A program made the translations under genes and the position numbers. The notes beneath the pieces are model-generated. The model saw nothing but the letters and a program-made list of their open reading frames with translations, was not told the DNA's origin and ran no database searches. A DNA stretch of 64,000 nt from positions 162,811 to 226,810 of the IMG/VR virus record IMGVR_UViG_3300046507_000773. One strand, 5' to 3'. Origin of the DNA: a virus. Of the stretch, positions 47,066-63,109 are shown in pieces (position 1 is the first letter of the stretch; every line of letters begins with the position of its first letter).

Positions 47066-47107
47066 AATACCCACGCTGCATGCCGGGCGTGGGATTCTTT
47101 TATGCCG
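47066..47107 (+). terminator. Terminator followed by TATGCCG
   Basis: GAATACCCACGC paired with GCGTGGGATTC around a GC-rich loop, then TTTTATGCCG (TATGCCG 47101-47107). An in-frame ATG at 47080, inside this element, makes a false long start for the next gene. Confidence 0.85.
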
Positions 47108-47175
47108 GAAATTTAAAAAGTAAATGGATATTTTATGCTTTACCCCTAGTATTTCCCACCTTTGCAGGATTGCAC

Positions 47176-47811
47176 ATGGCAAACATCGACTATACCAAGG
47201 GCCCTGAAGACATTCTGATCGACCTGATCAACGACGCGAACCCGGATAATACCCTTACCCTGGCGCAGGTTGCTCTGTCGACCCCGTCGATTGTCACCGA
47301 CGGTACGGAAGTGGGGCCATCCTTCAACAATCGCAAGACGAAGCTGACTGTTTCGGCCATTCCGGGTTCGGGTTATTCCGAGTCCGTGGACGTGCAGTAC
47401 AATCGTCTGCACTACCGTGACGTGTTCCCGACGACCGATGCTGACACCATCAAGTATCCGGTCTCGACCCACACGTTCGATCTGGCAGATCACACCAAGC
47501 TGTCGGACCTCGTTCCGCAGATCAATCAGCGCTACGGCCTGACCCTGTCGGCTGACGACTTCTGGGAGATGCCTCTCCCGACGTTCGAAGGTCTGCCTCC
47601 CTACGACGACAAGTTCGTCAAGCTTGAAGCGTTGCCCGCCTCGAAGATCTTCATCGGTGGCGTGCAGTTGAAAGTCAACCCAAACCCGTTTGACCTGGCC
47701 AACATGCCGGTGACGACCCTGAACGGTCTGGTGTATCCGACCTGGCAGGTGAAGTTCACCAACTTCGTCACTGAGACGATGGATGGCGGCCCTGGCGTTG
47801 CCTTCTGGTAA
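47176..47811 (+). CDS. Paralogous virion/fibre-adaptor family protein A, 211 aa
   Basis: Start ATG 47176 (MANIDYTKGPEDIL) with AGGA; the upstream ATG 47080 is rejected. Family features: N-terminal DxLIxLIN-type helix, then GSGYSESVDVQYNR, then a helix LVPQINQRYGLTLSADDF and a Leu-rich beta sheet (IFIGGVQLKVNPNPF) ending in LNGLVYPTW. The same plan occurs at 47837, 48430, 57090 and 58991. Function unknown; location among fibre genes suggests a fibre connector, collar or decoration protein (inference). Confidence 0.7.
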   Translation: MANIDYTKGPEDILIDLINDANPDNTLTLAQVALSTPSIVTDGTEVGPSFNNRKTKLTVSAIPGSGYSESVDVQYNRLHYRDVFPTTDADTIKYPVSTHTFDLADHTKLSDLVPQINQRYGLTLSADDFWEMPLPTFEGLPPYDDKFVKLEALPASKIFIGGVQLKVNPNPFDLANMPVTTLNGLVYPTWQVKFTNFVTETMDGGPGVAFW

Positions 47812-47836
47812 AACGCTAGCGTACTAGAGAGAACTC

Positions 47837-48361
47837 ATGTCCACCTTACGACCATATGGCGGTACCAGTGCCTCGCGCTTGACCGCCATGGTCAATAGGG
47901 CGAACAAGAAGAACTTAGTGTACGGGGTCGACTTCATTTTCGGCATCCCCATCGCTGATTCTGGAGTAGACGGGCGTAATACCAAAGTTGACGTGATTCC
48001 TTTGCGTAACTTGAAAACGTACAAAGCAGCAGACGTGTTCTACCAACGACTGCCGCTTAACGTACTGAACTTGTTGCCTGAAGGGTTCACGAAACCCGTC
48101 CTCATCCATGCTGTTCCCTTCCGCATCCACCAGATCCTTCCACGGATTAATGAGGCATTAGGCCTTGACTTAATGCCGGAAGAGGTTGAGGATGCTTTGT
48201 GTGAGTCTGTGGATGAACTCTACACACTGACTGTAAAAGAAGGTAGCTTAGCTTGGCTGGCCTCCTCCGTTGAATTCGTTGCACAGCACGTCACAGACAT
48301 TCCTTTGGAAAGTATCCTGACGGTAACAATACTTAACGGGTTGCAATACAAGCCGAAGTAA
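47837..48361 (+). CDS. Paralogous family protein B, 174 aa
   Basis: ATG 47837 with GAGAGAAC, 25 bases after family A. Ends with ILNGLQYKPK like its relatives (TLNGLTY, LNGLVYP) and has the helix LPRINEALGLDLMPEEVEDA matching LVPQINQRYGLTLSADDF of family A. N-terminal half is basic and more divergent. Likely a paralogue; function unknown. Confidence 0.68.
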   Translation: MSTLRPYGGTSASRLTAMVNRANKKNLVYGVDFIFGIPIADSGVDGRNTKVDVIPLRNLKTYKAADVFYQRLPLNVLNLLPEGFTKPVLIHAVPFRIHQILPRINEALGLDLMPEEVEDALCESVDELYTLTVKEGSLAWLASSVEFVAQHVTDIPLESILTVTILNGLQYKPK

Positions 48362-48429
48362 AAAAATACTTCATCCTATGTGAGTGTCCCTCGATACTCC
48401 GATTTCAAAACCCACATTAAGGCAAAATC

Positions 48430-48951
48430 ATGGCAAACCGTGACTTCACCAAGAGCGACGTACAGATCCTCCTGGACCAAATCAACGAAGACAACACCTC
48501 GGCACTGACCATCGCGCTGGTGTCGTTCGGCGCAGTCGCTACCGACAACGGCGGCGTGCGCAACTCGAAGATCAGCGCAACCGCGCTGGCTGGCTCGGGC
48601 TACAGCGGCTCGGTCGACTTCCTGTACAACCGCGTGGACCTGGCGACCATTCCTGGCGCCCGTTCGACCGTGTTCCAGGCTGGCGATGCAACCAACCTGT
48701 CGGACCTGATCGACGAGATCAACGTCGCGTACCAGCTGAACCTGACCGCCGCCGACTTCGTCGACGCGCCGATCCCGGCTTTCCCTGGCGCTGAGCCGCA
48801 CGAAACCCAGACCATCGACCTGGTCGCCAAGGCTGGCTCGCTGATCTTCGTCGGCACGCTGACCCTGACCATCGACGCGAACGACATCCCGCTGAGCAAC
48901 GTCGTGACTACGACCACGCTGAACGGCCTGACCTACACCCAGCCGGCGTAA
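48430..48951 (+). CDS. Paralogous family protein C, 173 aa
   Basis: ATG 48430 with AAGGCAAA. Shares MANRDFTK start, helix LLDQINEDN, GSGYSGSVDFLYNR, DLIDEINVAYQLNLTAADF and terminal TLNGLTY with family A. Strong C-ending codon bias suggests it is the most abundant member. Beta-rich core. Followed by two hairpins. Function unknown; likely a repeated virion decoration or connector protein. Confidence 0.72.
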   Translation: MANRDFTKSDVQILLDQINEDNTSALTIALVSFGAVATDNGGVRNSKISATALAGSGYSGSVDFLYNRVDLATIPGARSTVFQAGDATNLSDLIDEINVAYQLNLTAADFVDAPIPAFPGAEPHETQTIDLVAKAGSLIFVGTLTLTIDANDIPLSNVVTTTTLNGLTYTQPA

Positions 48952-49105: not shown

Positions 49106-50224
49106 ATGGCTGACCTCGACACCCTCGAACAACAGTTCGAAGATTCCGTCAACATCATCAAGCAGGTTGCAAACGGTGACGAAACCACCACTGTCAACCT
49201 GCCGAGTGGCGGTACCGTACGTTCCCTGCGCAAACTGCAAAAGGACGCCCAAGACGAACTGGACACGGCAGTTGACCTGTTCGGCGCCAACAAAGTGGAC
49301 AAATCGTCCGCCAACGCAGCTGACGGCTTCGTCGGCCTGGTCGGCTTCAAAGCCGTGCTCATGAATGCAGCCGGCGCCTTCAAGGCTCTGCTGTCGTTCG
49401 CTGGCACCGCTGACCGTGCTATCGGCTTCCAGGACAAGGACGGCACCGTCGCCTTCGTCTCGGACATCACCGATCGCATGGGCGTGGCCAATGGCCTGGC
49501 AACCCTGGACGGCAACGGTCTCATCCCTGCAGTTCAGCTGCCGAGCTACGTCGATGACGTCATCGAAGTCGCTACCAAGGCAGCTCTGCCGGCGACTGGC
49601 GAAGCTGGCAAGATCTACATCGTGCTGGCCGACGAATCCCGTTCGAACACGCTGAGCCAATATCGCTGGGGCGGTTCCGCTTACAGCCGTATCGTCTCGG
49701 CTCCAGGTTCGACCGACGAAGTCGCTGAAGGCGCAAGCAACAAGTACTTCACCGAAAGCCGCGTGCTGGCCGCCATCCTGGCTGGCTTCTCGACTGCGAC
49801 CAACGCAGCCGTGACCGCCGCTGATTCGGTGCTGGTTGCCATCGGCAAACTGCAGGCACAAGTGACGGCAGTGCTGGCTTACGCCAAGACCTACGACTTC
49901 CATGGCTTCGTGCCGGGGAAGCCGACTGCTTCGGCTACGCTGCTGTTCGTCCGTGCTGGTCGTGCCTTTACGCTGCCTGCCGGTCTGACCGGTTCGCAGT
50001 TCAAGGCCAAGACCGCAGCTACCGCGTCGACCACCATCACGCTGTACAAGAATGGTGCGGCATTCGGCACCCTCGTGTGGGCTGCCGGTGGTGTTACCCC
50101 GACCGTTACCGCGGCTTCGGCAACTTCGTTCGCTGCTGGCGACGAGCTGACCGTCGTGGCTCCGGCTACCCAGGATACCACCCTGGCCGATGTGGCTCTG
50201 ACCCTGTTGGGCTCGCAGAACTAA
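49106..50224 (+). CDS. Tail fibre protein, 372 aa
   Basis: ATG 49106 with AAGGAAAG. N-terminal 70 residues are a helical attachment region (LEQQFEDSVNIIKQVANGDE, ending SLRKLQKDAQ), shared with the N-terminus of the 1189-residue protein. Then a fibre repeat: LPSYVDDVIEVATKAALP, GEAGKIYIVLADE, YRWGGSAYSRI, STDEVAEGASNKYFTESR. C-terminal Thr/Ala beta domain resembles the end of the 1189-residue fibre. Likely a trimeric receptor-binding or spacer fibre. Confidence 0.82.
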   Translation: MADLDTLEQQFEDSVNIIKQVANGDETTTVNLPSGGTVRSLRKLQKDAQDELDTAVDLFGANKVDKSSANAADGFVGLVGFKAVLMNAAGAFKALLSFAGTADRAIGFQDKDGTVAFVSDITDRMGVANGLATLDGNGLIPAVQLPSYVDDVIEVATKAALPATGEAGKIYIVLADESRSNTLSQYRWGGSAYSRIVSAPGSTDEVAEGASNKYFTESRVLAAILAGFSTATNAAVTAADSVLVAIGKLQAQVTAVLAYAKTYDFHGFVPGKPTASATLLFVRAGRAFTLPAGLTGSQFKAKTAATASTTITLYKNGAAFGTLVWAAGGVTPTVTAASATSFAAGDELTVVAPATQDTTLADVALTLLGSQN

Positions 50225-50241
50225 GCTTAATCGCCGATCAT

Positions 50242-50279
50242 AAAAGGGACAGGTAACCGAAAGGTGCCTGTCCCTTTTT
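50242..50279 (+). terminator. Intrinsic terminator
   Basis: AAAAGGGACAGG/CCTGTCCCTTTTT stem, 13-base loop, T-tract, symmetric A/T flanks. Ends the fibre gene. Confidence 0.9.
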
Positions 50280-50301
50280 ATTTGTCTCTTTAGGAAAAAC
50301 C

Positions 50302-51009
50302 ATGAGTTCCAATTTGATCCAATTGTTTTCCCAAGGTCTGTACGGACCTAGCGACCCTTACTGGGATAAGGTGATCGCTCTCCTGCACATGGACGGTGCC
50401 ATTGGTTCACAAAGCATCGTGGACCTGAAAGGGCATGCATTCTCCACTCCAGCGGGTACGGGAGTGAAAATGGTCGCAGATGCTGACGCTACTAATGGCG
50501 TTGCAGCAAACTTCGACGGCAGTGCCAACAGCTGGATTTCGAGCGCCACTGGTCTTGCAGACTACCAGTTCCACAAAGAAGACTTCACCATGGAAGCCTT
50601 CATCAATCAAAAACTGCGTTCGGCTGTCTCCCCAATCATTGCGATGGGTTACTCGCAAGCCAATGCGGGCCTGATCCTGTACGTAAATGCAAACGGCTAT
50701 CTGGACGGCTCATCCGGGCAATACAACTACCTCATCGCAAGCGGTTTGGTCGTACCACTTAACACGCGGGTTCACGTAGCCCTGACGCGTAAAGTCGGCG
50801 TTATGTCGTGCTGGCTTAACGGCCAGTTGGCAGGTCAGATTACGACCATGGAAAGTTTCGACATGTCCGATGGTCTTCTCGATATTGGCGGAACTCGTCC
50901 GGACGCTTATCGTTTCAACGGTACGATCGATGAGGTCCGTGTCACTCGCGGCGTGTCTCGTTATAACCAGCCATTCACGCCGCCTACTGGTCCGTGGCCG
51001 GAACACTAA
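50302..51009 (+). CDS. LamG/concanavalin-like lectin domain protein, cassette member 1
   Basis: 235 residues, ATG 50302 with AGGAAAAAC. Start MSSNLIQLFSQGLYGPSDPY, then the DPYWDKV-LLHMDG signature common to the cassette. A jelly-roll core follows with DFTMEAFINQK, NTRVHVALTRKVG and the closing YRFNGTIDEVRVTRGVSRYNQPF. Each member probably forms a trimer-tip or adhesin module that binds surface glycans. Part of a chain of similar genes spaced 8-26 bases; presumably one operon. Confidence 0.82.
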   Translation: MSSNLIQLFSQGLYGPSDPYWDKVIALLHMDGAIGSQSIVDLKGHAFSTPAGTGVKMVADADATNGVAANFDGSANSWISSATGLADYQFHKEDFTMEAFINQKLRSAVSPIIAMGYSQANAGLILYVNANGYLDGSSGQYNYLIASGLVVPLNTRVHVALTRKVGVMSCWLNGQLAGQITTMESFDMSDGLLDIGGTRPDAYRFNGTIDEVRVTRGVSRYNQPFTPPTGPWPEH

Positions 51010-51018
51010 GGAAAAAAC

Positions 51019-51762
51019 ATGAGCTCCAACACAATCATTTTAGGTGGTGGCTACCTTTTGGACTATGATCCTTTTTGGAGTTCGGTAGTTGCCCTATGTC
51101 ATTTCGACGGCACCAATGGCTCCAGGGTATTTACCGAGGAGAAGGGTCATGCCATGTACTATGCTGGTAACGCAGCCTTAAGCGCGAACCAGAGCCTTTA
51201 TGGCGATACTTCTGCATATCTGGCAGGTAGTGGCGACTACTTCGCCATCAGTGCCAGTAATAACGGCAACGGTAGCGACTTCTCGCTCGCTAGCGACGAC
51301 TTCACTCTTGAGATCGCTTACCGTCATGCTCCTAATACCTGGGGTAAGATTGTCGGCAACTATCAATGGCAGGCAGGCTATAGGGGCGGTTGGTACTTGG
51401 GTGCAGGTACTGACGGCAGTCTGGCCTTTGTTACTTCCACCACACTCGTTAGTGGCGGTGCAGGAACAATTAAAGATGGCCAGTGGAATCGCATCGCTGT
51501 GGTTCGTCGGGGTACCACCTTCTATCTCTACGTCGAAGGCGTTCTGGTGGCTCAGGCTGTTCCTGCTGCGCCGACCCAAAACATTCCTGATCCAGGTACT
51601 GCTTGGGCGAAGAACCTCCGCTTCGGTTGCAAGATCACTGATGGCGCCAGCTTCGATGATTTCCTTCCGGGCTATTACGACGAATTCCGTTTGACCCGCG
51701 GCGTTGCCCGTTATTTGGGAAATAGCTATTCCCTGGCAGCTGCGGGATTCCCTAACAAGTAA
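51019..51762 (+). CDS. LamG-like lectin protein, cassette member 2
   Basis: 247 residues, nine bases after member 1, with AAGGAAAAAAC. Starts MSSNTIILGGGYLLDYDPFW and shows VVALCHFDGTNGS, DFTLEIAYRH, GQWNRIAVVRRGTTFYLYV and YDEFRLTRGVARY. Same fold and order as its neighbours but divergent in the middle. Inferred adhesin. Confidence 0.82.
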   Translation: MSSNTIILGGGYLLDYDPFWSSVVALCHFDGTNGSRVFTEEKGHAMYYAGNAALSANQSLYGDTSAYLAGSGDYFAISASNNGNGSDFSLASDDFTLEIAYRHAPNTWGKIVGNYQWQAGYRGGWYLGAGTDGSLAFVTSTTLVSGGAGTIKDGQWNRIAVVRRGTTFYLYVEGVLVAQAVPAAPTQNIPDPGTAWAKNLRFGCKITDGASFDDFLPGYYDEFRLTRGVARYLGNSYSLAAAGFPNK

Positions 51763-51771
51763 GGAAACAGC

Positions 51772-52521
51772 ATGAGCTCTAACAGCATTCTCCTGGCCCA
51801 ACGGCCAAGCATTTTCGTGCCAGGTAAATCGGTACTGTTCGATGGTGCCGATCACATCCGTCTTGCTTACGATAGTCGCATTGGTGACTTCGGTAATGGC
51901 GAATGGACGATGGAAGGTTTCATCAAGTTCCTCGCAGCTCCAACTGACGATGAAGCGATTATGGCCTTCGGTAACGGTGGCGGTTCCCAGTCGCCCTACC
52001 TTCGACTCTGCTACAGTCCGAGTGGTAATTGCTTCTATGCTGATGAAGCCAATAGCGTTGTCGGTTTGTGGTCGGCAGTCGGTAACACCATCGGCCCGAT
52101 CGACTACAATCACTTCTACCACGTCGTCGCAGAGCGCTACAACGGGCAGATCACACTTTATGTGGACGGCAACTTCGATACGACCAAAGGCGCTTACCGT
52201 AATAGCTACGGTGGCTGGAACAGTGCCAGCTCCGTTCACCAGAGCGGCATGCAGTTGGTTGCAGGTTCACTCGTCTACGGTTCGCGTGGTTTCATTGAAA
52301 CTGCCAACGCTCTGCTCTCGAACCTGCGCGTCACCAAAGGCCGGGCAGTCTACAAAGGTAACTTCACGCCCCCGACTTCGAAACTCGAAGCTGGTGAGGG
52401 CACGACCGTACTGCTGTGCAATTCCGACACCCTCGTTGATGCAAGTCCTTACAACTGGCCGCTGATTCTGGACAACTCGACGCCAACCATCAGCGACGTG
52501 TCACCTTTTGTTTCTAACTGA
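51772..52521 (+). CDS. LamG-like lectin protein, cassette member 3
   Basis: 249 residues, nine bases after member 2, with AAGGAAACAGC. Starts MSSNSILLAQRPSIF; lacks the DPFW-LHFDG segment at the N-terminus but keeps the jelly-roll motif EWTMEGFIKF, YNGQITLYVDG and NLRVTKGRAVYKGNFTPP. Then a terminator interrupts the cassette. Inferred adhesin. Confidence 0.8.
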   Translation: MSSNSILLAQRPSIFVPGKSVLFDGADHIRLAYDSRIGDFGNGEWTMEGFIKFLAAPTDDEAIMAFGNGGGSQSPYLRLCYSPSGNCFYADEANSVVGLWSAVGNTIGPIDYNHFYHVVAERYNGQITLYVDGNFDTTKGAYRNSYGGWNSASSVHQSGMQLVAGSLVYGSRGFIETANALLSNLRVTKGRAVYKGNFTPPTSKLEAGEGTTVLLCNSDTLVDASPYNWPLILDNSTPTISDVSPFVSN

Positions 52522-52547
52522 AGCTTATCCTGAACAGTAACAAAGAT

Positions 52548-52578
52548 AGGGGTTTGCTCATAAGGCGAACCTCTTTTT
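52548..52578 (+). terminator. Probable terminator inside lectin cassette
   Basis: AGGGGTTTGC paired imperfectly (8 of 10) with GCGAACCTCT and followed by five T. It splits the lectin cassette into two transcription units. Confidence 0.6.
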
Positions 52579-52636
52579 CCAAACCAATAAGAAGAAGACT
52601 ACGCTAGTAGTCCAACTCAGACCCTAGGAAGATAGC

Positions 52637-52729
52637 ATGTCTAACAATTTTATTCAAGTACTGGGTACCCAGTCAGACCCCTTCTGGAACTTCGTCAACG
52701 TGCTGTTGGATTTTGATGGAGTGAAATAG
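52637..52729 (+). pseudogene. Truncated lectin cassette remnant
   Basis: Thirty codons from ATG 52637 (AGGAAGATAGC upstream): MSNNFIQVLGTQSDPFWNFV then VLLDFDGVK and stop TAG 52727-52729. This is the N-terminal signature (MSNN-x-I, DPFW, FDG) of the neighbouring lectin genes, then cut off. Its start region and spacer resemble full members. Most likely the stump left by unequal recombination or deletion; a small expressed leader is possible. Confidence 0.75.
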
Positions 52730-52731
52730 TC

Positions 52732-53535
52732 ATGAGTTCCAATAGCATCATTCTCGCAGCCATTATCGCTGCTTACCCAGGTTCCAATGAAACGAGCATT
52801 TCCGATCCTTATTGGCAAAATGTTGCTCTCCTGATGCATGCGGACGGAACAGACGCAGCAAATTTCTTTACCGATGCCACAGGTAAGTCGACTCTGACGA
52901 CAGTTGCAGTAGGGTCTTCCAAACCCTATACGAGTACACGAAAGAGTTTTGCTGGTCCCACCAGCGCTTATTTCGATGGCATGGGTGGTCACATCAACTC
53001 GAGTCTGAATCCTGACTTCAGCTTCCCGGCTGGAACAGACTTCACCATTGAGGCATGGGTCAACATGACCAGTCTTGTCGGTTCAGGTCAAGTTCCTCGC
53101 TCCTGTATCATTTTCGGTTTCGATGCCACAAGTGGCGATGGCAGCGGTCCCAGGACTTGGTCGATTTTTGTCAGTAACAATGGTGCTCTAATTTTCGAAA
53201 ATGCTGCTTCTGACGGATCGCGCAATTTTGCTATGTCCTCGGCGGCTGCGGCCATTAGGGTTAATAGCTGGCAACATGTTGCGATCGTTCGCAAGGGTAC
53301 TACGATGTACATGTTCATTGATGGCAGGTCCATTGCGTTCACGAAGAGCGGACCTGCCAGTGTGAATGTGGATGTATTAAGCTCTGGCTATATCCGCTTG
53401 GGACGCCTGTACACCTCTAGCGATTGGGATTATCGCCTCAACGGCTACATTGACGAGGTGCGCATTACTAAAGGCGTGGCTCGTTATAGTGCCGATTTCA
53501 CTCCTCCACCAGGGGCATTTGCCAACAACGCTTAA
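52732..53535 (+). CDS. LamG-like lectin protein, cassette member 4
   Basis: 267 residues, ATG 52732 two bases after the remnant's stop; ribosome site GGAG lies inside the remnant. Starts MSSNSIILAAIIAAYPGSNE, then SDPYWQNVALLMHADG, DFTIEAWVNMT, SWQHVAIVRKGTTMYMFIDG and NGYIDEVRITKGVARYSADF. Full-length member that may be translationally coupled to the remnant. Inferred adhesin. Confidence 0.82.
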   Translation: MSSNSIILAAIIAAYPGSNETSISDPYWQNVALLMHADGTDAANFFTDATGKSTLTTVAVGSSKPYTSTRKSFAGPTSAYFDGMGGHINSSLNPDFSFPAGTDFTIEAWVNMTSLVGSGQVPRSCIIFGFDATSGDGSGPRTWSIFVSNNGALIFENAASDGSRNFAMSSAAAAIRVNSWQHVAIVRKGTTMYMFIDGRSIAFTKSGPASVNVDVLSSGYIRLGRLYTSSDWDYRLNGYIDEVRITKGVARYSADFTPPPGAFANNA

Positions 53536-53560
53536 GTACTGTTTATTCTAGGAAGATATC

Positions 53561-54268
53561 ATGTCTAACAATAGCATCATCACCCCAGGCCTCTTTGCCA
53601 CGGCGTATGGTCCGAACCTGTTTGATCCCGACCATGACCCGTATTGGAATAAGGTTGCGACCCTTATGCATTTCGACGGAGCCCAAGGTAACTCCTCCTT
53701 CGTCGATGTGAAAGGTCGCCCCATCACCAACTACGGCGTAATTACCGATTTGGGAAATCCAGCAATTGCTCCATCAACAGCCTACTTCGGTGGTGCCGCC
53801 CAGGCTATGATCATTAGTCAGGTGGATGACAACCAGACCGGTGACTTCACGATTGAATGGTTCGGTAAGTGGGAGACCATCGGCAACTGTACCCTGTTCG
53901 ATACTCGCCCGCAGTCCACCAATGGTCCATACATGGACTTTTTCTACTCCAGTGGTGGTGTCGGTATCTGGTTTAACAATGCAACTGCAGTGTATGCTGC
54001 TTTTGTACCTGCGCAGAATAGGACCTATCACCTTGCATTGTCTCGTAAAGGTGGAATTATTCGCTTCTTCATCGACGGCGCGATCTACTTCACCTGGAAC
54101 TATGCTGGTGTCGTGGCCATCCCTCGTTTCTTCTTGGGTGGCAACGGATACAACCAGGCACAGGACTGGTACAAAGGCCGCATGAGTGAATTCCGTTATA
54201 CCAAAGGTGTCGGTCGTTATGAGAATTCGTTCATTCCAGTCTACGCACGCTTCCCAGCTTCACTGTAA
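53561..54268 (+). CDS. LamG-like lectin protein, cassette member 5
   Basis: 235 residues with AGGAAGATATC. Starts MSNNSIITPGLFATAYGPNL and DPYWNKVATLMHFDGAQGN; jelly-roll core with DFTIEWFGKWETIGNC, FFIDGAIYFTWNYAGV and RMSEFRYTKGVGRYENSF. Very close in sequence to member 6 throughout, with long identical stretches, so the pair is a recent tandem duplication. Confidence 0.82.
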   Translation: MSNNSIITPGLFATAYGPNLFDPDHDPYWNKVATLMHFDGAQGNSSFVDVKGRPITNYGVITDLGNPAIAPSTAYFGGAAQAMIISQVDDNQTGDFTIEWFGKWETIGNCTLFDTRPQSTNGPYMDFFYSSGGVGIWFNNATAVYAAFVPAQNRTYHLALSRKGGIIRFFIDGAIYFTWNYAGVVAIPRFFLGGNGYNQAQDWYKGRMSEFRYTKGVGRYENSFIPVYARFPASL

Positions 54269-54276
54269 GGATTTGT

Positions 54277-54981
54277 ATGTCTAACAATACCATCATTACT
54301 CCAGGCCTGTTTGCGCTGGGAGCTGCGAACAATCTTTTCGACCCCAACCACGATCCCTACTGGAATAAGGTAGCAACCCTGATGCACTTTGACGGCGCGC
54401 AGGGTAACAGCGTCTTCACGGATGTGAAAGGGCGTGGCGTTACCAACTCTGGCGTCATCACTGATCTGGGTAGCCCGGCAATTGCTCCTGCATCGGCGTA
54501 CTTCAACGGCAGTTCGGGCATGTCGATTGCCCAGGCAGATGACAACCAGACGGGTGATTTTACGGTCGAATTCTTCGCAAAATGGGAAACGATCACAAAT
54601 TGCTCGCTGGTCGATAGTCGACCCCTGAGCAACAATGGCGCGTTTTTGGACTTCTTCTACTATTCAGGGTCATTTGGTATTTACATGAATAGCACCACCC
54701 AAGCTGCGGCAGCATACGCAGTTACGCTCAATAAAACTTACCACGTTGCAGTGTCGCGTAAGAGTGGTGTCGTTCGCATGTTCCTGGATGGCGTGTTGCT
54801 CTTTACCTGGAACTATGCTGGTGTACTGTCGATGCCTCGCTTCTTCCTGGGCGGTAACGGTTATAATCAGTCCATCGAATTCTTCAAAGGGCGCATGAGT
54901 GAATTCCGCTACACCAAAGGCGTGGGTCGTTACGAAAATCCGTTCGTGCCGGTGTACGCACGCTTCCCAGCATCCCTCTAA
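54277..54981 (+). CDS. LamG-like lectin protein, cassette member 6
   Basis: 234 residues, eight bases after member 5 with AAGGATTTGT. Near-copy of member 5: shared FFLGGNGYNQ, RMSEFRYTKGVGRYEN and DPYWNKVATLMHFDGAQGN, differing mainly in residues likely to lie on the binding face (AQADDNQTGDFTVEFFAKWE versus SQVDDNQTGDFTIEWFGKWE). Recent duplicate with diversification. Inferred adhesin. Confidence 0.82.
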   Translation: MSNNTIITPGLFALGAANNLFDPNHDPYWNKVATLMHFDGAQGNSVFTDVKGRGVTNSGVITDLGSPAIAPASAYFNGSSGMSIAQADDNQTGDFTVEFFAKWETITNCSLVDSRPLSNNGAFLDFFYYSGSFGIYMNSTTQAAAAYAVTLNKTYHVAVSRKSGVVRMFLDGVLLFTWNYAGVLSMPRFFLGGNGYNQSIEFFKGRMSEFRYTKGVGRYENPFVPVYARFPASL

Positions 54982-54995
54982 ACAAAGGAATTACC

Positions 54996-55715
54996 ATGGC
55001 TTGCAATCTCATCCAAATTGCAGCAGTATTGTCAACTCTTGTCTATCCCGGCATTCAACCTACACTGAGTCAGCTCATGGTGTTGGCCCACATGGATGGT
55101 GCCAATGGGACATTAGCGAGCGGTAACATTGCCGAGCGTGGTGTGGTTACAGGCACCAATGCAGTCTATACAACGGCAACGAAAGCATTCGGTAGCGCCT
55201 CGATGGATTTTCAAGGCGGCGGTAGTCACTATCTGAGTGCTGACCTGAGCTCTAGTCTCATCGGCTCTGTTGACTTCACCTTAGAAATAATGGTGCGGCT
55301 AAAGTCGTACAACACGACGGCCGGCGGTTACTCCGGTATCATGGCGGGCGGCGCCGGTAACACGGGCCTGTGTCTTTACGTAAAGTCCGACGGTACCGTT
55401 GTATTGGCGGATGTTCAATCTGCTCGCCTTAGCACGGTTGCAGGTACTGTGAAACTGGGCGTTTGGACGCACATCGCTCTCACTCGCTCTGGCAGTACAT
55501 TCGTGATCTGGGTCGATGGCAAAACCGCGGCAACTGGTAACTTGGCCAATTGGCAAATTCTGACAAACTCCCTTGCTTTAGGCTTTACCGCAGTTGCGGG
55601 TTCGGGCTATTACATGGATGGCTTCATTGATGAATTTCGCTACTGTAAAGGACTGGCTGTGTATAGCCAGCCTTTTACGCCACCCACTCAGCCTTTCATT
55701 ATTCCATCCGCTTAA
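54996..55715 (+). CDS. LamG-like lectin protein, cassette member 7
   Basis: 239 residues, ATG 54996 with AAAGGAATTACC. Start MACNLIQIAAVLSTLVYPGI lacks the SSN motif but retains MVLAHMDGANG. Core motifs DFTLEIMVRLK, WTHIALTRSGSTFVIWVDG and MDGFIDEFRYCKGLAVYSQPF. Divergent N-terminus suggests recombination at the 5' end. Inferred adhesin. Confidence 0.8.
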   Translation: MACNLIQIAAVLSTLVYPGIQPTLSQLMVLAHMDGANGTLASGNIAERGVVTGTNAVYTTATKAFGSASMDFQGGGSHYLSADLSSSLIGSVDFTLEIMVRLKSYNTTAGGYSGIMAGGAGNTGLCLYVKSDGTVVLADVQSARLSTVAGTVKLGVWTHIALTRSGSTFVIWVDGKTAATGNLANWQILTNSLALGFTAVAGSGYYMDGFIDEFRYCKGLAVYSQPFTPPTQPFIIPSA

Positions 55716-55724
55716 GGACGCAGC

Positions 55725-56291
55725 ATGTCTAACAACAGTATCATCATTTCCGGTGCAGGAGTCGGCGTGAGCAAAAACGGTGCCATGGCACTGGGCGGAA
55801 CGTTCGATCCAGCATGGACTGCAAGCGGTGTGTCGTACTCTGCCGATCTCTTGACTGCCTCGATCGGTGGCAGTAAGACCACCGGTAGTACTCAGCACAT
55901 CACGGCCGGTAAGACCTACTTCGAAATGACAGTCACCGATTGGCCTACTCGCTATGGACCAATCATTGGTATTGCACCTGCAGCGACAGCTGTCGATGGT
56001 TATACTACACCGGGCGCGGTCGCTATCTGGCTGGTAGATGGAGGTTCAGTCAATCTCTACGACTCCGGCGGCCAAGTAGGCGCCTTCCCGAATGTCAACT
56101 TCGGCCTGAACGATACCGTTGGCTTCATGGTTGATTTGGATGGCGACGTTATCGCTATTTACAAGAACGGAGTCCCAACAGGCATTACTCATCCGATCAC
56201 GGGCAGTGATTATCTGGCATTCGCATCGTCAGCAGGCGGCGCTTATCCGGTAACAGTGACTGCCAACTTCGGCGCTAAGTCATTCTTGTAA
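55725..56291 (+). CDS. SPRY/B30.2-like domain protein in lectin cassette
   Basis: 188 residues, nine bases after member 7 with AAGGACGCAGC. The N-terminus keeps the cassette start MSNNSIIISGAGVG, but the fold differs: HITAGKTYFEMTVTD, IIGIAPA, then VGFMVDLDGDVIAIYKNGVP and YPVTVTANFGAKSF, the order of SPRY-type beta sandwiches. So a different binding module has been placed behind the same leader, evidence for module exchange within the cassette. Inferred adhesin. Confidence 0.75.
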   Translation: MSNNSIIISGAGVGVSKNGAMALGGTFDPAWTASGVSYSADLLTASIGGSKTTGSTQHITAGKTYFEMTVTDWPTRYGPIIGIAPAATAVDGYTTPGAVAIWLVDGGSVNLYDSGGQVGAFPNVNFGLNDTVGFMVDLDGDVIAIYKNGVPTGITHPITGSDYLAFASSAGGAYPVTVTANFGAKSFL

Positions 56292-56300
56292 GGAGACTCC

Positions 56301-56948
56301 GTGTCTAGTAATTCGATTATCCTGGCGCAAGCGCAACTTGCGGCAGATCTGAAAACTGTTTTGCTGATGCACTTTCAGAACACTTACGCTGACGATACCG
56401 GCAAAACTGTCACTGTAAGTGGCAGTCCCATCTTCAGTGGTGGTGCAACTGCCGGCACGCAGTGTCTGCGCCTCATTGGTTCTGAAAATCTTTCGGTCGG
56501 TCCACACAGTGATTTCATCTTCGGCAATGATGACTTCACGATGGAATGTTTCCTCTACAACACGCAGCAAACCTCTAGCGGTGTTGAGAATCTCATTAGT
56601 CTGTCTAACGGCACAGCCGGCATTGGGATGGGCTACTATCCAGGCAACAATCTCGTCTACCTGGCCAGTGGAACAACTGTACTGGCTACGGCAGCTTTGG
56701 GTTCAGCCACCAACTGGCCTCACGTTGCCTACAGCAGAAAAGGAAACGTGGGTCGTCTCTTCATCCGTGGCGTAAAGGTTGCCGAGGTTGCCGATAATTC
56801 ACCTATCAACAGTGGCATGTGTACTGTTGGTAAGGCGTCGGTCGGTGGTCCGTATAACTGGTACGGCTATCTCGATGAAGTGCGAGTATCGAAAGGTGCT
56901 CGTTACTGGGATAACTTCGCAGCACCCGTGGCTCCTTTGAGTCTTTAA
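56301..56948 (+). CDS. LamG-like lectin protein, cassette member 8
   Basis: 215 residues from GTG 56301, with AAGGAGACTCC. Starts MSSNSIILAQAQLAADLKTV, then VLLMHFQNTYADDTGK, DFTMECFLYNTQ, WPHVAYSRKGNVGRLFIRG and YGYLDEVRVSKGARYWDNF. Last of the cassette, followed by a terminator. Inferred adhesin. Confidence 0.82.
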   Translation: MSSNSIILAQAQLAADLKTVLLMHFQNTYADDTGKTVTVSGSPIFSGGATAGTQCLRLIGSENLSVGPHSDFIFGNDDFTMECFLYNTQQTSSGVENLISLSNGTAGIGMGYYPGNNLVYLASGTTVLATAALGSATNWPHVAYSRKGNVGRLFIRGVKVAEVADNSPINSGMCTVGKASVGGPYNWYGYLDEVRVSKGARYWDNFAAPVAPLSL

Positions 56949-56956
56949 GCATCTGG

Positions 56957-56982
56957 CCCTCCCTTCGGGGAGGGTTTTTATG
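56957..56982 (+). terminator. Terminator followed by TATG
   Basis: CCCTCCC/GGGGAGGG stem with TTC loop, T-tract and TATG (56979-56982). Confidence 0.88.
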
Positions 56983-56994
56983 CTCATCAGTATT

Positions 56995-57089: not shown

Positions 57090-57587
57090 ATGACTACGGC
57101 TAAAGACTTGCTGTTTCAGTTAATCAACGAGTCCAATCATTCCAAGCATCCTTTGAACAACAATGACGTGTCCTTCAGTGACCCACAATTGGATATCAGC
57201 ACAGCAAAGAATTCTAAAATCCAGCTCACTGCACGACCCGGCTCAGGTTACAAAGGAAGTATTTGGATATCCTACAGTCGAGAATCATTAGGGAATGTAC
57301 ATCTTCCGACCCAAATCCTGTCGGAAGTTACGTTCACCGTCGAAAGTATTTTGGCAGCCCTAAACGCAAAGCTGCTTGTCCCGATCACGCTTGAAGATCT
57401 GGAACCTTTCACACTCCCTCTCCTGAACGTCGGTGATATCCTCACCCTCGATCTCTCGGCCCGTAGTGGATCTTTGGCATGGATTGCCGCTACAACGATT
57501 TCGCTCTTGTACGGCCTCCCGCCCAACATTGACGATGTGTACACAATTTTCAATTCGGAACTACCCGTCAAATTTCCACCTAAATAA
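57090..57587 (+). CDS. Paralogous family protein D, 165 aa
   Basis: ATG 57090 with CGAGGAAAT. Shares the DLLFQLINESN helix, GSGYKGSIWISYSR and a Leu-rich beta core (SGSLAWIAATTISLLYG) with proteins at 47176 and 48430. The GSLAW motif also occurs in the 47837 protein. Function unknown; sits beside fibre genes. Confidence 0.68.
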   Translation: MTTAKDLLFQLINESNHSKHPLNNNDVSFSDPQLDISTAKNSKIQLTARPGSGYKGSIWISYSRESLGNVHLPTQILSEVTFTVESILAALNAKLLVPITLEDLEPFTLPLLNVGDILTLDLSARSGSLAWIAATTISLLYGLPPNIDDVYTIFNSELPVKFPPK

Positions 57588-57598
57588 CGAGGGAATAA

Positions 57599-58366
57599 AT
57601 GTCAACAGTGACACCTGACCCCACAGTAGTGGCTGTCATCGCGCGACTAAAAGCAGCCGTAGCACTGGCTGAAGCTTGGACGCAAGGTGACGTAGCCCTA
57701 GATGTGGTAGGTACAGCAGGCACGTACCCATCCCTAGCGAAGTTGATGAAGTCAACCCAAGACCAAATCAATGCGCTATTGACCAATCCCACTCTTCTTG
57801 GTACCGGTGGTTTCACGCCGCCCAAGGGAACAACTGCCCAGCGTGAAGCTGCCGCAGCAAAGGGGCGTGTTCGTTACAACACGACTCTTGACACAATTGA
57901 GATTTTGACGGCCAATGGTTGGCTCTCTTTACAGAACCTTGTGATCTCAACGTATCGTGGAAGTGTTGTGCCCTCCACTGGCACGACCAGGATTCCTTAC
58001 GACACGACGCCTCCGGCAGTAACGGAAGGCACGCAACTTTGGTCGGTCACAGTAGCGCCCAAGGTAATTGGCTCCATCATGTCGATTGACTTTGCAACAA
58101 TGGTCGATAATAGTAACAATGGAAATCTGTCGATGGCGATTTTCAAAGGCAATACGTTAATTGGTGTTACGGGTATTAACATTGCTGGTAACAAAGCAGC
58201 CGGCATGGCCATTAGCGTGAATGATCCAGTCACCTCTCTTACTCCTGTTACCTACAGCTGCCGATTCGGTAATACAGCCGGCACCTGGTATCAAGGTCGT
58301 GGTTCAACTACCACGTATGGCGGCGCCATTACAAATGGCTGGAAGATTGACGAGGTGCTGCCATGA
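57599..58366 (+). CDS. Tail fibre-like protein, 255 aa
   Basis: ATG 57599 with GAGGGAAT. N-terminal helix (ARLKAAVALAEAWTQGDVAL) followed by TYPSLAKLMKSTQDQINALL, the same stem start as other fibres here, then a short shaft (GRVRYNTTLDTIEILTANGW) and a beta C-terminal domain. Probably a short fibre. Overlaps the DUF4376-like gene by four bases. Confidence 0.75.
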   Translation: MSTVTPDPTVVAVIARLKAAVALAEAWTQGDVALDVVGTAGTYPSLAKLMKSTQDQINALLTNPTLLGTGGFTPPKGTTAQREAAAAKGRVRYNTTLDTIEILTANGWLSLQNLVISTYRGSVVPSTGTTRIPYDTTPPAVTEGTQLWSVTVAPKVIGSIMSIDFATMVDNSNNGNLSMAIFKGNTLIGVTGINIAGNKAAGMAISVNDPVTSLTPVTYSCRFGNTAGTWYQGRGSTTTYGGAITNGWKIDEVLP

Positions 58367-58908
58367 ACTACATTGATCTGATCGGTGAATTCTTCCCGAA
58401 CGTACAAGCGTGGTGCGAAGGCGATCCTTCGAATTACGACGACGTCCAAGTCCACGAAAATGGCGATCCGCTTCCAAGCAAGGAACAACTCGACATCATC
58501 GACTGGGCAAACCGTCAGCACCTGAAGTGGTTGGAAATCCGAAACGAGCGAGACCGTCGTTATTACCAGGGCGTTTATCTCGATGGCGTCGACGGTAATT
58601 TCTATTGGTTCTGGACCGATCTCGATACCCGCAGCAAATACGGGATGTACGACATCACAATTCGTAGCGCCAATCTTGGTCCCAACGTTGTCTTGGACAA
58701 CTGGAAAACCATGACGGGTGCTTTTACTCCCATGACGGTTCAACAGCTCTATCGTGTTATTGGAGCAGCAGTCATGAACGAGAAGGCCATCTTCAATACG
58801 GCCGAGGCAAAGAACGCCGAGATGATGTTGCTCGACGATCCGGATACCTACGACAATGTCTACGCTGGCTGGCCTACTTGCTACAGCGATACGCTTACCC
58901 AAGCGTAG
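58363..58908 (+). CDS. DUF4376-like protein, putative fibre assembly factor, 181 aa
   Basis: ATG 58363 in the ATGA overlap. Contains HLKWLEIRNERDRRYYQG followed by FYWFWTDLDTRSKYGMYDI, the pattern of DUF4376 (W-x-x-I-R-x-x-R-D, then a D-x-x-S/T-R step) found in many phage tail-fibre proteins and their assembly partners. N-terminal region is acidic (YDDVQVHENGDPLPSKEQLD). Coupled to the fibre gene upstream, so likely its chaperone or partner. Confidence 0.7.
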   Translation: MNYIDLIGEFFPNVQAWCEGDPSNYDDVQVHENGDPLPSKEQLDIIDWANRQHLKWLEIRNERDRRYYQGVYLDGVDGNFYWFWTDLDTRSKYGMYDITIRSANLGPNVVLDNWKTMTGAFTPMTVQQLYRVIGAAVMNEKAIFNTAEAKNAEMMLLDDPDTYDNVYAGWPTCYSDTLTQA

Positions 58909-58913
58909 TAACG

Positions 58914-58942
58914 TCCCTCCCTTCGGGGAGGGCTTTATGCCG
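58914..58942 (+). terminator. Terminator followed by TATGCCG
   Basis: CCCTCCC/GGGAGGG stem with TTCG loop, CTT and TATGCCG (58936-58942). Confidence 0.88.
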
Positions 58943-58990
58943 ACTCTAATCTTTTGACCTATAAAAGTAATTTTTTACTGCGAGCTTGCC

Positions 58991-59530
58991 ATGAAAATTA
59001 ATCCCAATCTGTCGGGGATGGGTAACGTCTTAGGGCTGATCAACTCGGCAAATCCGGGAAAAGATTTCACCACAGCCCAAGTCTACGTCAAGAGTGTCAC
59101 TCCCCGCACGCCTGATTCCAATCCCTACAACAGCACAGCAGTCGTCAGTGGAACCACCGACGGACCGTACAAGAACGACCAGGTAGTCTTCTACAACAGG
59201 AGGCCTATCACAGAAGCCGTAGAAAGCCCTGTGGTGAGTTATCAGGTCGACGAGCTCACAACCTTGGCCGACTTAGTACAAATGGTCTCCAGGGGCCTTA
59301 AAATCGTTTCTAGCGAAGTCGAGCTTGTTGGCTTCAAAACGGAAAAGGATAGCTCGGTTAGCACGATGACCTTGCAGCCCATTGCCAATTCTCTCCTCTA
59401 CGTTGATACGTTCGATATCGTTCTCGTGTGGTCAGGAGAAGAAGTACAAGAAGCCGTCCAAGTTCTCTGGGCTGAAGACGAACTCAACAAATTGATCAAC
59501 GTAACTATGCCCAGTCGCGGTTACCTGTAA
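58991..59530 (+). CDS. Paralogous family protein E, 179 aa
   Basis: ATG 58991 behind a weak GAGC-type site. Has the N-terminal VLGLINSANPGKDFTTAQVYV helix-strand start of the family and a C-terminal Leu/Val-rich beta part (SLLYVDTFDIVLVW), but lacks LNGLxY. Divergent member; assignment to the family is by plan rather than strong identity. It directly precedes the largest fibre gene. Confidence 0.6.
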   Translation: MKINPNLSGMGNVLGLINSANPGKDFTTAQVYVKSVTPRTPDSNPYNSTAVVSGTTDGPYKNDQVVFYNRRPITEAVESPVVSYQVDELTTLADLVQMVSRGLKIVSSEVELVGFKTEKDSSVSTMTLQPIANSLLYVDTFDIVLVWSGEEVQEAVQVLWAEDELNKLINVTMPSRGYL

Positions 59531-59539
59531 GGAAAAGCC

Positions 59540-62500
59540 ATGTCAATCATTTCGGATATCGTCGCAAGGCTGACTCGAAACGAGCAGCGGTTGAATGACG
59601 TCGTCAACGGAGACGATAAAACCGTCGTGCAAACCGATGGCGGGCCATTGCCTTCGCTTGCCAAGCTCATCAAGGACAAGCAAGACAAGATCGACCAATT
59701 TATTCCTTTGGTGGATCAAAAGGAAGACAAGGATCAAAAAGATGCTGAGAACGGTTACGCCGGTCTCGGTGATGATTTCATGCTGCGTGTTAAGAATGCA
59801 GCCGGTAGTGTCGCCTCGTTTATCACGAGCATCGCTACCGAAGCGCAAACGTTCATCCTCCCAGCGAAGGGTGGTACGTTTGCAATGACGAGCGACCTGC
59901 ATGACCCTGAAACAAAAGAAGGCATCCTGGAAAAACTGGGTGCGGATAAAGTCACCGGCTCGAACACTGGTGACCAGAGCCTGGAATCTTTGGGTGCACA
60001 ACCCAAGCTGGGCTACCCTCCTCTGGACGCGCGCCTTGCCGATATGCCAGGGGGCTTCCCTGTTCTGGATGAAGATGCAAAACTTCCTGTAAAGTACATC
60101 CCGGACACGACCAAGTCGATCCTCGAATACCCGACCATCGATGACTTCCCGGCTACCGGTCTGGAAGAAAAGTTCTATCTGGACAAGTCGACCAAGAAGG
60201 CGTACTTCTGGGACGGCAGTGCTTACCAGACCGTCGGTACTTCGACGGGCGACACGGACTCGATCGTCGAGGGTGACACCAACCTCTTCTTCACCGGTCA
60301 GCGTGTTCTCGATACGGTCCTGCAAGGCTTTAACCTGGTGGTCAACGGGTTCGTGACGGGTGCAGACTCGGTCATGACGGCAATTGCCAAGTTGCAGCTC
60401 CAAATCAACAACCTCACCACTTCGGACAACCTCAAAGCCCCGAAGGCCAATCCGACTTTCACGGGTAACGTGAATGTGCCGGATACCGATACGTCGGTCA
60501 GCGGCAACAACGCTGTCAACACGCGTTCGCTTAATCAGCGAGTCAGTGACTACGACACCGGTATCCAGATTGCGATGGGGCTGAAAGAAAACGTCATCAA
60601 CAAGGCAAGTAACTTCGCCACGGTGAACAACATCCTGTACCCGACGATCCAGGCTGTAAAGGCTTACGTCGACTCCCTCATCGTCGCCGTCTTGAAAGAT
60701 TGCGGCAGCTGGGACGCTAGCGGAAACGTGTTCCCGACAACGGGTGGCACTGGTGCAGGCGGCGCGATCCTCAAGGGTAACTTCTGGTACGTGAGTGTGG
60801 CTGGTATTTTGGCTGGTGGTCCTGTCAACGTGGGTGACTCGTTCCGTGCTCTCGTGGATAACCCTGGTCAAGATCCTGCGAAGTGGGATGTGCTCGAATC
60901 GAACATCGGTTACGTGCCGCTTAACAAAGCAGGTGACTCGATCGGCTTCCTGACTGTGCTGGGACAATTCATCGCCAATTCAGCGGCCACCTTCAAGGGT
61001 TTCGTTACCTTGAGCGGTACAGCAGGAGACAGCGGCGGTTATATCAAGATGAGCCGCCCTGGTTATCCACAGTGGATGCTGGAAGACTTGAACCAGCCAG
61101 TCGACCAGCGCATTTGGGGTAACTGGGTCAACCCGGATGGCACGCTCATCATGGGAACGCAAACCAATGCCGGTGTAGGCACCGCAGCTATGATTCTGGC
61201 GCGTTCTGGAAGTGGTGGTCGTCACATCGCTTACGCCCGAGGTCTTACGCTGAAGAACCCGATTGCCAACGTCGATGTCGACTTTGCTCTCGATGGTCAA
61301 GCTGGCTGGGGTCGTTACATCTCGTTCCATACGAGCGGCAAACCGCGCTGGTTCCTTGGCGCTAGTTCGGCAGCAGAAGGCGGCGCTAACGCAGGCAGCT
61401 ACTTCGAACTGTACCGCTACGACGATAACGGCAACTACATCGATTGCGTGATGTCGTTCTCGCGTTCGACTGGTCGTGCCACGTTCACTCTGGCTCCCTC
61501 GATCCCGACGGTGTCCAACGGTGACAACACGAATGCTGCAGCATCGACGCAGTGGGTACAGAACCAAAAGGGTATCGCTAACGGTCTGGCTCCTTTGGGT
61601 TCCGACTCGAAAATCGCTGCCATCTATCTGCCCAGCTACGTCGACGATGTGGTTGAAGCGGCTACAAAAGCAGCACTGCCTGCCACGGGTGAAACCGGCA
61701 AGATCTACGTTGTGTTCGCCGATGAAACGAATGGCGGCAAAACGTGGCAATACCGCTGGGGTGGTACGACGTACGTCTCGATCATCCCAAGTCCCGGTAC
61801 GACTGACAGCGTGGCTGAAGGTGCAGGTAACCTTTACTTCACGCAGAGCCGCGTACTGAACACGTTGCTGGCTGGTCTTAACGCTGGTCTCAGCGGCGCA
61901 GTTGCTGCAAGCGATACCGTGCTGCAAGCCTTCGGCAAGATCCAAAACACCTTGGCGGCATTGCAGGCAGTCGATGCGACCAAGGTCAATGTGCAAAATG
62001 CCACGATGACTGGCACCGTATCGATGAATACCACAGCGGTGAACATGGCATCCGATAGCGTCCCGGACAACATGCTCGTCGGTATCAGTGGTCAGGCTAA
62101 CTCCTATCGTTACATTCAGTGGCGTACGCTGGGAGTGAATCGCTGGTCGCTCGGTACCATTGCAGCGGCAGGTGAATCGGGTTCGAACGCTGGCAGTGAC
62201 TTTGCCATGTACAACTACGCCGATAATGGTTCCTTCCTCGGCACGGTGTTCACGATCGCTCGCGCCACGGGCATCATGTCGTTCGGTCAGGCACCGATCG
62301 TGGGTACCGTGCCTAGCACGGATGTCAGCGGCAAAGCTGTCTCGACACAGTGGATCTCGAACGTTCGTGGTTCGCCTAATGGATTGGCTCCTCTGGGCGC
62401 TGACTCCAAGGTGCCTGCTGCTTACCTGCCAAGCTACGTGGACGACGTGTTGGAATACGCTACGTACGCTGCTCTGCCAGGCGTTGGTGAAACCGGAAAG

Positions 62501-63109
62501 ATCTACGTGGTCATTTCGGATGCCAATAACGGTAACAAGACCTGGCAGTATCGTTGGACGGGTAGCTCCTACGCGGCGATCACGCCGAGTCCTGGTACGA
62601 CGGATGCGGTTCCGGAAGGCGCAACCAACCTGTACTTCACCAACAACCGAGCAGTCAATGCACCGGTGTCGAACTCACAAGGTGGCGTTCGTGCCAAAGT
62701 AGCAGATGGCGATGCGCTCAATACGGCCGTCGCCAAACTGCAGGCCAACCTCAACAAGTTGATCTACGACATCTCCGGCGGTTTCTCCGGTAAGGTAACG
62801 GCAGGTGACAAGACGTACATCCACGTCACGGCACGTTCTGTTATCTTTAGTGAGGCCCTGGGTGCAACTACCCAGGCGTACGCAGCCGTTGCTCCAACTG
62901 GCTCGGTCACGTTCACGATCTACGCTGGTACGACGGCTACCGTTCTCGGAACGATTACGTTCGCAGCTGGACAGACCGTGGGTGTTCCGTCAATGAATGC
63001 TTCGAGCATCAATCCTGGTGTTCCTATCTTCATCACGGCGCCTGCTGCAGCCGATGCAACGATCGCAGATGTGATCATTACGATTCCTGCCTACACGGCT
63101 AACTCGTAA
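59540..63109 (+). CDS. Large modular tail fibre protein, 1189 aa
   Basis: ATG 59540 with AAGGAAAAGCC. N-terminal LTRNEQRLNDVVNGDDKTVV and PSLAKLIKDKQDKIDQFI attachment region; a shaft repeat LPSYVDDVVEAATKAALPAT-GETGKIYV-YRWGGTTY-TTDSVAEGAGNLYFTQSR occurs twice (around 700 and 970) and in variant form near 200; two sugar-binding-like beta modules with similar sequence (GRYISFHTSGKPRWFLGASS and YRYIQWRTLGVNRWSLGT) lie before each repeat. The C-terminus matches the 49106 fibre. Duplicated internal module. Likely the main receptor fibre. Confidence 0.85.
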   Translation: MSIISDIVARLTRNEQRLNDVVNGDDKTVVQTDGGPLPSLAKLIKDKQDKIDQFIPLVDQKEDKDQKDAENGYAGLGDDFMLRVKNAAGSVASFITSIATEAQTFILPAKGGTFAMTSDLHDPETKEGILEKLGADKVTGSNTGDQSLESLGAQPKLGYPPLDARLADMPGGFPVLDEDAKLPVKYIPDTTKSILEYPTIDDFPATGLEEKFYLDKSTKKAYFWDGSAYQTVGTSTGDTDSIVEGDTNLFFTGQRVLDTVLQGFNLVVNGFVTGADSVMTAIAKLQLQINNLTTSDNLKAPKANPTFTGNVNVPDTDTSVSGNNAVNTRSLNQRVSDYDTGIQIAMGLKENVINKASNFATVNNILYPTIQAVKAYVDSLIVAVLKDCGSWDASGNVFPTTGGTGAGGAILKGNFWYVSVAGILAGGPVNVGDSFRALVDNPGQDPAKWDVLESNIGYVPLNKAGDSIGFLTVLGQFIANSAATFKGFVTLSGTAGDSGGYIKMSRPGYPQWMLEDLNQPVDQRIWGNWVNPDGTLIMGTQTNAGVGTAAMILARSGSGGRHIAYARGLTLKNPIANVDVDFALDGQAGWGRYISFHTSGKPRWFLGASSAAEGGANAGSYFELYRYDDNGNYIDCVMSFSRSTGRATFTLAPSIPTVSNGDNTNAAASTQWVQNQKGIANGLAPLGSDSKIAAIYLPSYVDDVVEAATKAALPATGETGKIYVVFADETNGGKTWQYRWGGTTYVSIIPSPGTTDSVAEGAGNLYFTQSRVLNTLLAGLNAGLSGAVAASDTVLQAFGKIQNTLAALQAVDATKVNVQNATMTGTVSMNTTAVNMASDSVPDNMLVGISGQANSYRYIQWRTLGVNRWSLGTIAAAGESGSNAGSDFAMYNYADNGSFLGTVFTIARATGIMSFGQAPIVGTVPSTDVSGKAVSTQWISNVRGSPNGLAPLGADSKVPAAYLPSYVDDVLEYATYAALPGVGETGKIYVVISDANNGNKTWQYRWTGSSYAAITPSPGTTDAVPEGATNLYFTNNRAVNAPVSNSQGGVRAKVADGDALNTAVAKLQANLNKLIYDISGGFSGKVTAGDKTYIHVTARSVIFSEALGATTQAYAAVAPTGSVTFTIYAGTTATVLGTITFAAGQTVGVPSMNASSINPGVPIFITAPAAADATIADVIITIPAYTANS

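Follow-up and report, generated by a model that had tools for sequence, protein, structure and literature searches.

A cassette of lectin-type genes in a phiKZ-like jumbo phage carries a shared N-terminal leader peptide, a candidate docking module for small adhesion heads

Results

Nine lectin-type genes between virion protein genes

The DNA analysed here (the window, 64 kb) spans positions 162811-226810, i.e. the end, of a 226,810-base virus record, which we assign to a phiKZ-like jumbo phage on three features: the record encodes parts of a multisubunit RNA polymerase as well as an internal head protein of the phiKZ type, and the structural block in the window is of the type found mainly in such phages. 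A DNA polymerase is also encoded. By its structural block the nearest named relative is Burkholderia phage FLC9, at about 40% protein identity.

The window contains, at 50302-56948, the nine consecutive ORFs that an earlier note on this DNA had described as a lectin cassette. Each encodes a protein of 188-267 residues with a single LamG or SPRY-like domain, and nearly all are preceded by a GGA-type ribosome site. The intervals between them (9, 9, 210, 25, 8, 14, 9 and 9 bp) confirm the tight packing reported, 8-25 bp with a single wide exception. All eight LamG members exceed the Pfam cut-off of Laminin_G_3 (PF13385; 31.9-72.7 bits versus 27.6), while the match of member 8 (55725) to SPRY (PF00622) remains below it (23.9 bits versus 26.3, E 4.8e-5) and its single-sequence model (pLDDT 39) is too poor to judge the fold; its reading as a different domain behind the common start agrees with the note at the level of a SPRY-like assignment. 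In a Pfam search of the whole 226.8-kb record, all eight LamG matches and the sole SPRY match fell within the cassette, whose features are as follows.

50242..50278, + strand: terminator-like hairpin upstream of the cassette (RNA fold of 50228-50285, -26.2 kcal/mol, z -6.05, then a T run)
50302..51009, + strand: member 1, leader MSSNLIQLF and LamG (PF13385, E 5.6e-14)
51019..51762, + strand: member 2, leader MSSNTIILG and LamG (PF13385, E 3e-11)
51772..52521, + strand: member 3, leader MSSNSILLA and LamG lacking the DPYW strand, with a C-terminal extension (PF13385, E 4e-8; alignment)
52548..52574, + strand: terminator-like hairpin between members 3 and 4 (RNA fold of 52545-52582, -14.8 kcal/mol, z -3.60, TTTTT tail)
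52637..52729, + strand: orphan leader of a truncated tenth member, MSNNFIQVLGTQSDPFWNFVNVLLDFDGVK* (translation; leader pattern match)
52732..53535, + strand: member 4, leader MSSNSIILA and LamG (PF13385, E 5e-20; AlphaFold pTM 0.78)
53561..54268, + strand: member 5, leader MSNNSIITP and LamG (PF13385, E 2e-7)
54277..54981, + strand: member 6, leader MSNNTIITP and LamG (PF13385), 70% identical to member 5
54996..55715, + strand: member 7, variant leader MACNLIQIA and LamG (PF13385, E 2e-14)
55725..56291, + strand: member 8, leader MSNNSIIIS and SPRY-like domain (PF00622, below cut-off)
56301..56948, + strand: member 9 (GTG start), leader MSSNSIILA and LamG (PF13385, E 1e-12)
56955..56976, + strand: terminator-like hairpin closing the cassette (56949-56985, -21.1 kcal/mol, z -3.78)

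Because strong hairpins followed by T runs flank the cassette on both sides and interrupt it between members 3 and 4, it probably consists of two transcription units; sigma-70 promoter matches were not above chance. The larger gap noticed around 52.6 kb does exist and measures 210 bp, but it contains the middle hairpin and a truncated tenth ORF. The latter comprises a leader and the first LamG strand, after which it is cut short, and its appearance is that of a remnant left by a tenth member since lost. Several of the genes surrounding the cassette encode virion proteins or tail-protein-like products.

47080..48951, + strand: three DUF7941 (PF25613) phiKZ-type virion proteins (47080, 47837, 48430) upstream of the cassette (Pfam, PHROG)
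49106..50224, + strand: tail-fibre-like protein directly upstream of the cassette (PHROG tail fibre matches)
57090..59530, + strand: DUF7941 proteins 57090 and 58991, with 57599 and the tail-protein-like 58363, downstream of the cassette
59540..63109, + strand: 1189-aa tail-fibre/peptidase-like protein, downstream of the cassette (PHROG)

Five paralogous DUF7941 virion proteins (window 47080-48951, 57090-57587 and 58991-59530) therefore flank the lectin genes. No T4gp10-like anchor or branch domain was recognised by HMM (Pfam/PHROG) among the neighbours scanned.

A short leader conserved as a peptide

The start common to the cassette proteins is confined to residues 1-8 or 9, with the consensus MS[SN]N-x-I-I-L. 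As had been noticed, MS[S/N]N is nearly universal (8/9 members) and the N-terminus of member 7 is different (MACNLIQIA), retaining N4 and I6. Mean pairwise identity among the members is 65% in the leader, falls to 14.5% in the adjoining linker, whose length varies, and is 51% in the DPYW..HFDG segment and 25.5% in the remainder. In the AlphaFold model of member 4 the LamG domain is folded (pTM 0.78) and residues 1-22 are unordered (pLDDT about 35). The leader is thus a module separate from the two unrelated domain families that carry it.

A degenerate DNA pattern for the leader matched 10 sites in the 226.8-kb record, nine of them cassette starts (counting the orphan, member 7 not being matched), and its reversed control none. 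In 29 related records it occurred 0-3 times each, near control level, and in IMG/VR it gave 26 single matches, among which were neither arrays nor clear LamG proteins. The tenth match in the record (L049:1485; G000 31984) starts a protein without evident lectin features, MSTNVIATIPF..., and is probably due to chance. Comparison of the cassette with phages by megablast and of the SPRY-like member (55725) by tblastn returned no match, and the collections searched yielded no second phage with the MS[SN]N-x-I-I-L leader. The leader hence appears as a short conserved N-terminal peptide specific to this phage group.

Its DNA is no more alike than the peptide requires, with the exception of the orphan and member 5. 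Where two members share a residue in leader columns 2-8, they share the codon in 83 of 184 pairs (0.451), the value predicted from genome codon usage being 0.465 +/- 0.059; serines are encoded by AGY in some members and by TCN in others, and most pairs of leaders are identical at only 10-19 of 27 bases. Since synonymous codons of the leader are randomised, selection acts on the leader peptide and not on DNA homology.

DPYW...HFDG is part of the LamG fold

The second shared signature, which the earlier note had placed with the leader as common to nearly all members, fared differently: DPY/FW..H.DG is present in five of the nine (1, 2, 4, 5 and 6) and in the orphan, and it forms strand 1 of the LamG fold (residues 31-37 in the model of member 4). 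It belongs to the LamG module, not to the leader. The motif is frequent among the LamG modules of viruses: a scan with a pattern set including it retrieved at least 411 confirmed viral relatives. The eight LamG proteins themselves diverge too strongly for their joint alignment to be used in scanning contigs. The best viral structural matches are phage LamG proteins, one of phage RSL2 among them. Against the PDB, the top Foldseek matches were receptor-binding lectin domains of clostridial toxins (TM about 0.5-0.6, 11-20% identity); we reject a reading in terms of toxicity, the likeness being that of a generic ConA-like sandwich.

Lectin heads at the same slot in related phages

In FLC9-type phages the slot following the homologue of window gene 45696 is occupied by fibre-like proteins that combine DUF7941 and LamG in one chain, as in FLC9 gp307, gp308, gp310 and gp323 and in L019. 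The DUF7941 part of these fusions is the domain of the window neighbours 47080, 47837, 48430, 57090 and 58991. FLC9 itself carries a long run of DUF7941 family proteins, some of them fused to LamG. In the record L014/G001, whose 45696 homologue is the closest (49% identity), no LamG match occurs over 224 kb, G-records being possibly fragments. The variable heads therefore sit at a break of structural-gene synteny, and lectin-type heads are accessory. Identical gene content in all relatives without breakpoints at the leaders, which the earlier note regarded as fatal to its idea of interchangeable receptor modules, is not what we observed, since gene content differs among relatives. The cassette products may plausibly be receptor modules.

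Other leaders on the same domains in other phages

Leaders of different sequence, each specific to its lineage, precede overlapping selections of domains in related phages. Jumbo phages of the FLC6/RSL2 type carry M-x(3-4)-LLKKK on stand-alone LamG, SPRY, F5/8C (discoidin) and glycine-rich proteins encoded at scattered loci. In SURPRISE13 the stand-alone LamG genes form two clusters, the SPRY gene is separate, and all of them begin with this leader. A six-frame scan of that genome yielded 12 ORFs, of which 11 are credible members and one is chance-like.

SURPRISE13 ORFs with the LLKKK leader and a domain match: LamG 001, 002, 062, 063 and 064; SPRY 195; F5/8C 090 and 091
SURPRISE13 further ORFs with the leader: glycine-rich 103 (just under cut-off); gp104, without domain match; 186219-186908

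All eight LamG, SPRY and F5/8C proteins from the Pfam search of SURPRISE13 bear the leader, 090 and 091 being the only F5/8C proteins in its genome according to the F5/8C search. Two leader-bearing ORFs have no Pfam match, namely gp104 (L064:33501-34178) and the unannotated 186219-186908 on the minus strand (L011:2911-3600), and possibly represent further adhesion folds. In G016, G017 and G018, too, LamG and SPRY genes start with this type of leader, two LamG proteins of G017 departing from it. Its codons are likewise randomised, and in SURPRISE13 they are AT-rich. At one locus, where flanks are 70-88% identical, SURPRISE13 has three leader-LamG genes and FLC6 and FLC8 have one. The annotated starts of FLC6 gp61 (L067:2941-3600) and of FLC8 gp62 at the same locus (L068) lie too far downstream; the upstream start restores the leader MQTAMLLKKK.

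A third leader, LGxNGGLxGxR, precedes heads of the LamG and F5/8C types in unrelated environmental contigs (L077, L073, L076 and L106), with four stand-alone LamG ORFs in L077, and starts of the [NS]PYRF type recur on LamG proteins. Since the motifs of these other lineages were defined post hoc, from examples already seen, the counts given for them are descriptive.

Discussion

We consider it fairly probable that the cassette encodes small adhesion heads that are mounted on one type of virion site through a shared N-terminal docking peptide, in keeping with the shared anchor that the earlier note offered as one of two readings. Several lines of evidence favour docking: the leader is nearly confined to the cassette, is carried by LamG as well as SPRY-like bodies and lies outside the modelled fold; it is conserved as a peptide next to a linker that is not; other phages bear different leaders on LamG, SPRY, F5/8C and glycine-rich proteins; DUF7941-LamG fusions in relatives follow directly on the structural block shared with the window; heads turn over among relatives; and docking peptides of as few as 7 residues are known from other phages (PMC6872550). 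The leader would act as a plug that docks the heads onto the phiKZ-type virion, a flexible linker of variable length would join it to the LamG or SPRY-like head, and the heads would bind glycans on the host surface. As suggested by the fusions in relatives, a DUF7941 protein or the adjoining fibre proteins may provide the socket. The set of heads, whose members would come and go, may widen or tune adsorption, with a possible effect on host range. The leader could nonetheless serve another role common to these proteins, and several such explanations deserve to be weighed.

The leader might be residual homology, the nine genes being plain tandem duplicates that have diverged least at their start. 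Members 5 and 6 are indeed clear duplicates, near copies as had been recognised, and all eight LamG bodies are homologous. The SPRY-like protein bears the leader too, however, the linker next to it is unrelated (14.5% identity), synonymous sites within it are saturated, and in SURPRISE13 a parallel leader is attached to four domain families encoded at dispersed sites. This explanation, already strained by the use of leaders on several domain families, seems to us unlikely.

The other reading of the earlier note, in which short DNA homology at the gene starts serves as a recombination site for the exchange of heads, turned out to be mostly unsupported. Head content does turn over among relatives, and one pair of starts fits well: the orphan, with its resemblance to a deletion scar, and member 5 agree in 24 of the 25 bases spanning -13 to +12 while their bodies have diverged, the upstream part being more alike than in any of 741 background pairs. 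Elsewhere DNA homology is what such a site would need and what the leaders lack, given that in both leader families codons are shared just as often as neutrality predicts, that serine codons switch boxes and that base identity between most leaders is low. We regard a recombination site as quite unlikely.

In phage T4, shared N-terminal peptides are found on varied internal proteins. By this precedent the leader could be a capsid-targeting signal, with the lectins packaged and injected, and a gene for an internal head protein lies close by. LamG, SPRY and F5/8C are surface-adhesion folds, however, and just one of the nine members has the motif of the phiKZ prohead protease, S/A/G-X-E (PMC13282480), among its N-terminal 60 residues, which makes capsid targeting very improbable. 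That the leader helps late operon genes to initiate translation is more improbable still: the GGA ribosome sites are regular and the SURPRISE13 leader codons AT-rich, yet such a function should have kept the nucleotides alike, which is not the case, and other genes of the window do without a leader.

Docking of the heads by their leader finds its closest known counterpart in the secondary receptor-binding proteins (RBPs) that Latka et al. described for the K1E/K1-5/SP6, KP32, KP34 and phiK64-1 groups. These are attached through a peptide at the extreme N-terminus, which is 7-11 or more residues long, has hydrophobic positions (MALxxLV in KP34) and varies between phage groups, and they provide several variable heads encoded at breaks of structural synteny (PMC6872550). 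The cassette leader is likewise short, lies at the very N-terminus and has a hydrophobic core. The heads of the secondary RBPs are large, beta-helical depolymerase tailspikes on a T4gp10-like branch (PMC6872550), whereas the cassette heads are single LamG or SPRY-like domains. What is new with respect to secondary RBPs is the lectin-type single-domain heads of several families, their number per cassette and the occurrence of different peptides in several lineages. The branched complexes of CBA120/Ackermannviridae and RaK2 likewise bring many heads onto each particle via common N-terminal parts (PMC10253068), as would the cassette, but they do so with folded XD and D domains instead of a short peptide.

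LamG, SPRY and discoidin domains are known adhesion domains of jumbo-phage virions, described, in the part of the survey drawn on here, without a shared leader or cassette (PMC7824862). The DUF7941-LamG fibre proteins of FLC9 and relatives use the same genomic slot and a homologous LamG module, the latter in one chain with the virion protein and not free-standing behind a leader. The M..LLKKK proteins of SURPRISE13, FLC6/FLC8 and G016-G018 share with the cassette the short lineage-specific leader joined to LamG or SPRY heads and differ in leader sequence, in their dispersed loci and, in SURPRISE13, in having F5/8C and glycine-rich heads too. The SURPRISE13 paper, in the sections relevant here, names flagella as the receptor and gives the lectin genes no role (PMC11898562), and the virion proteomics of phiRP31 is published in a main text without lectin assignment (PMC5468394).

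It is tempting to speculate, on a balance that we judge to fall slightly short of even, that N-terminal plugs, each specific to its lineage, form a general means of display, with unrelated short peptides used in at least three lineages to mount the same adhesion toolbox (LamG, SPRY, discoidin and glycine-rich domains) onto one virion socket. Were this so, any fold could gain a place on the virion by acquiring the peptide, and the peptide alone would identify unknown adsorption proteins from sequence. Docking by the leaders would also explain how one virion could hold a large number of unrelated lectin heads and exchange them with no need for recombination within large fibre genes, and a peptide of about nine residues would mark adsorption proteins of giant phages, mostly annotated as hypothetical. 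The leader search already picks out SURPRISE13 gp104 and 186219-186908, both without an assigned domain.
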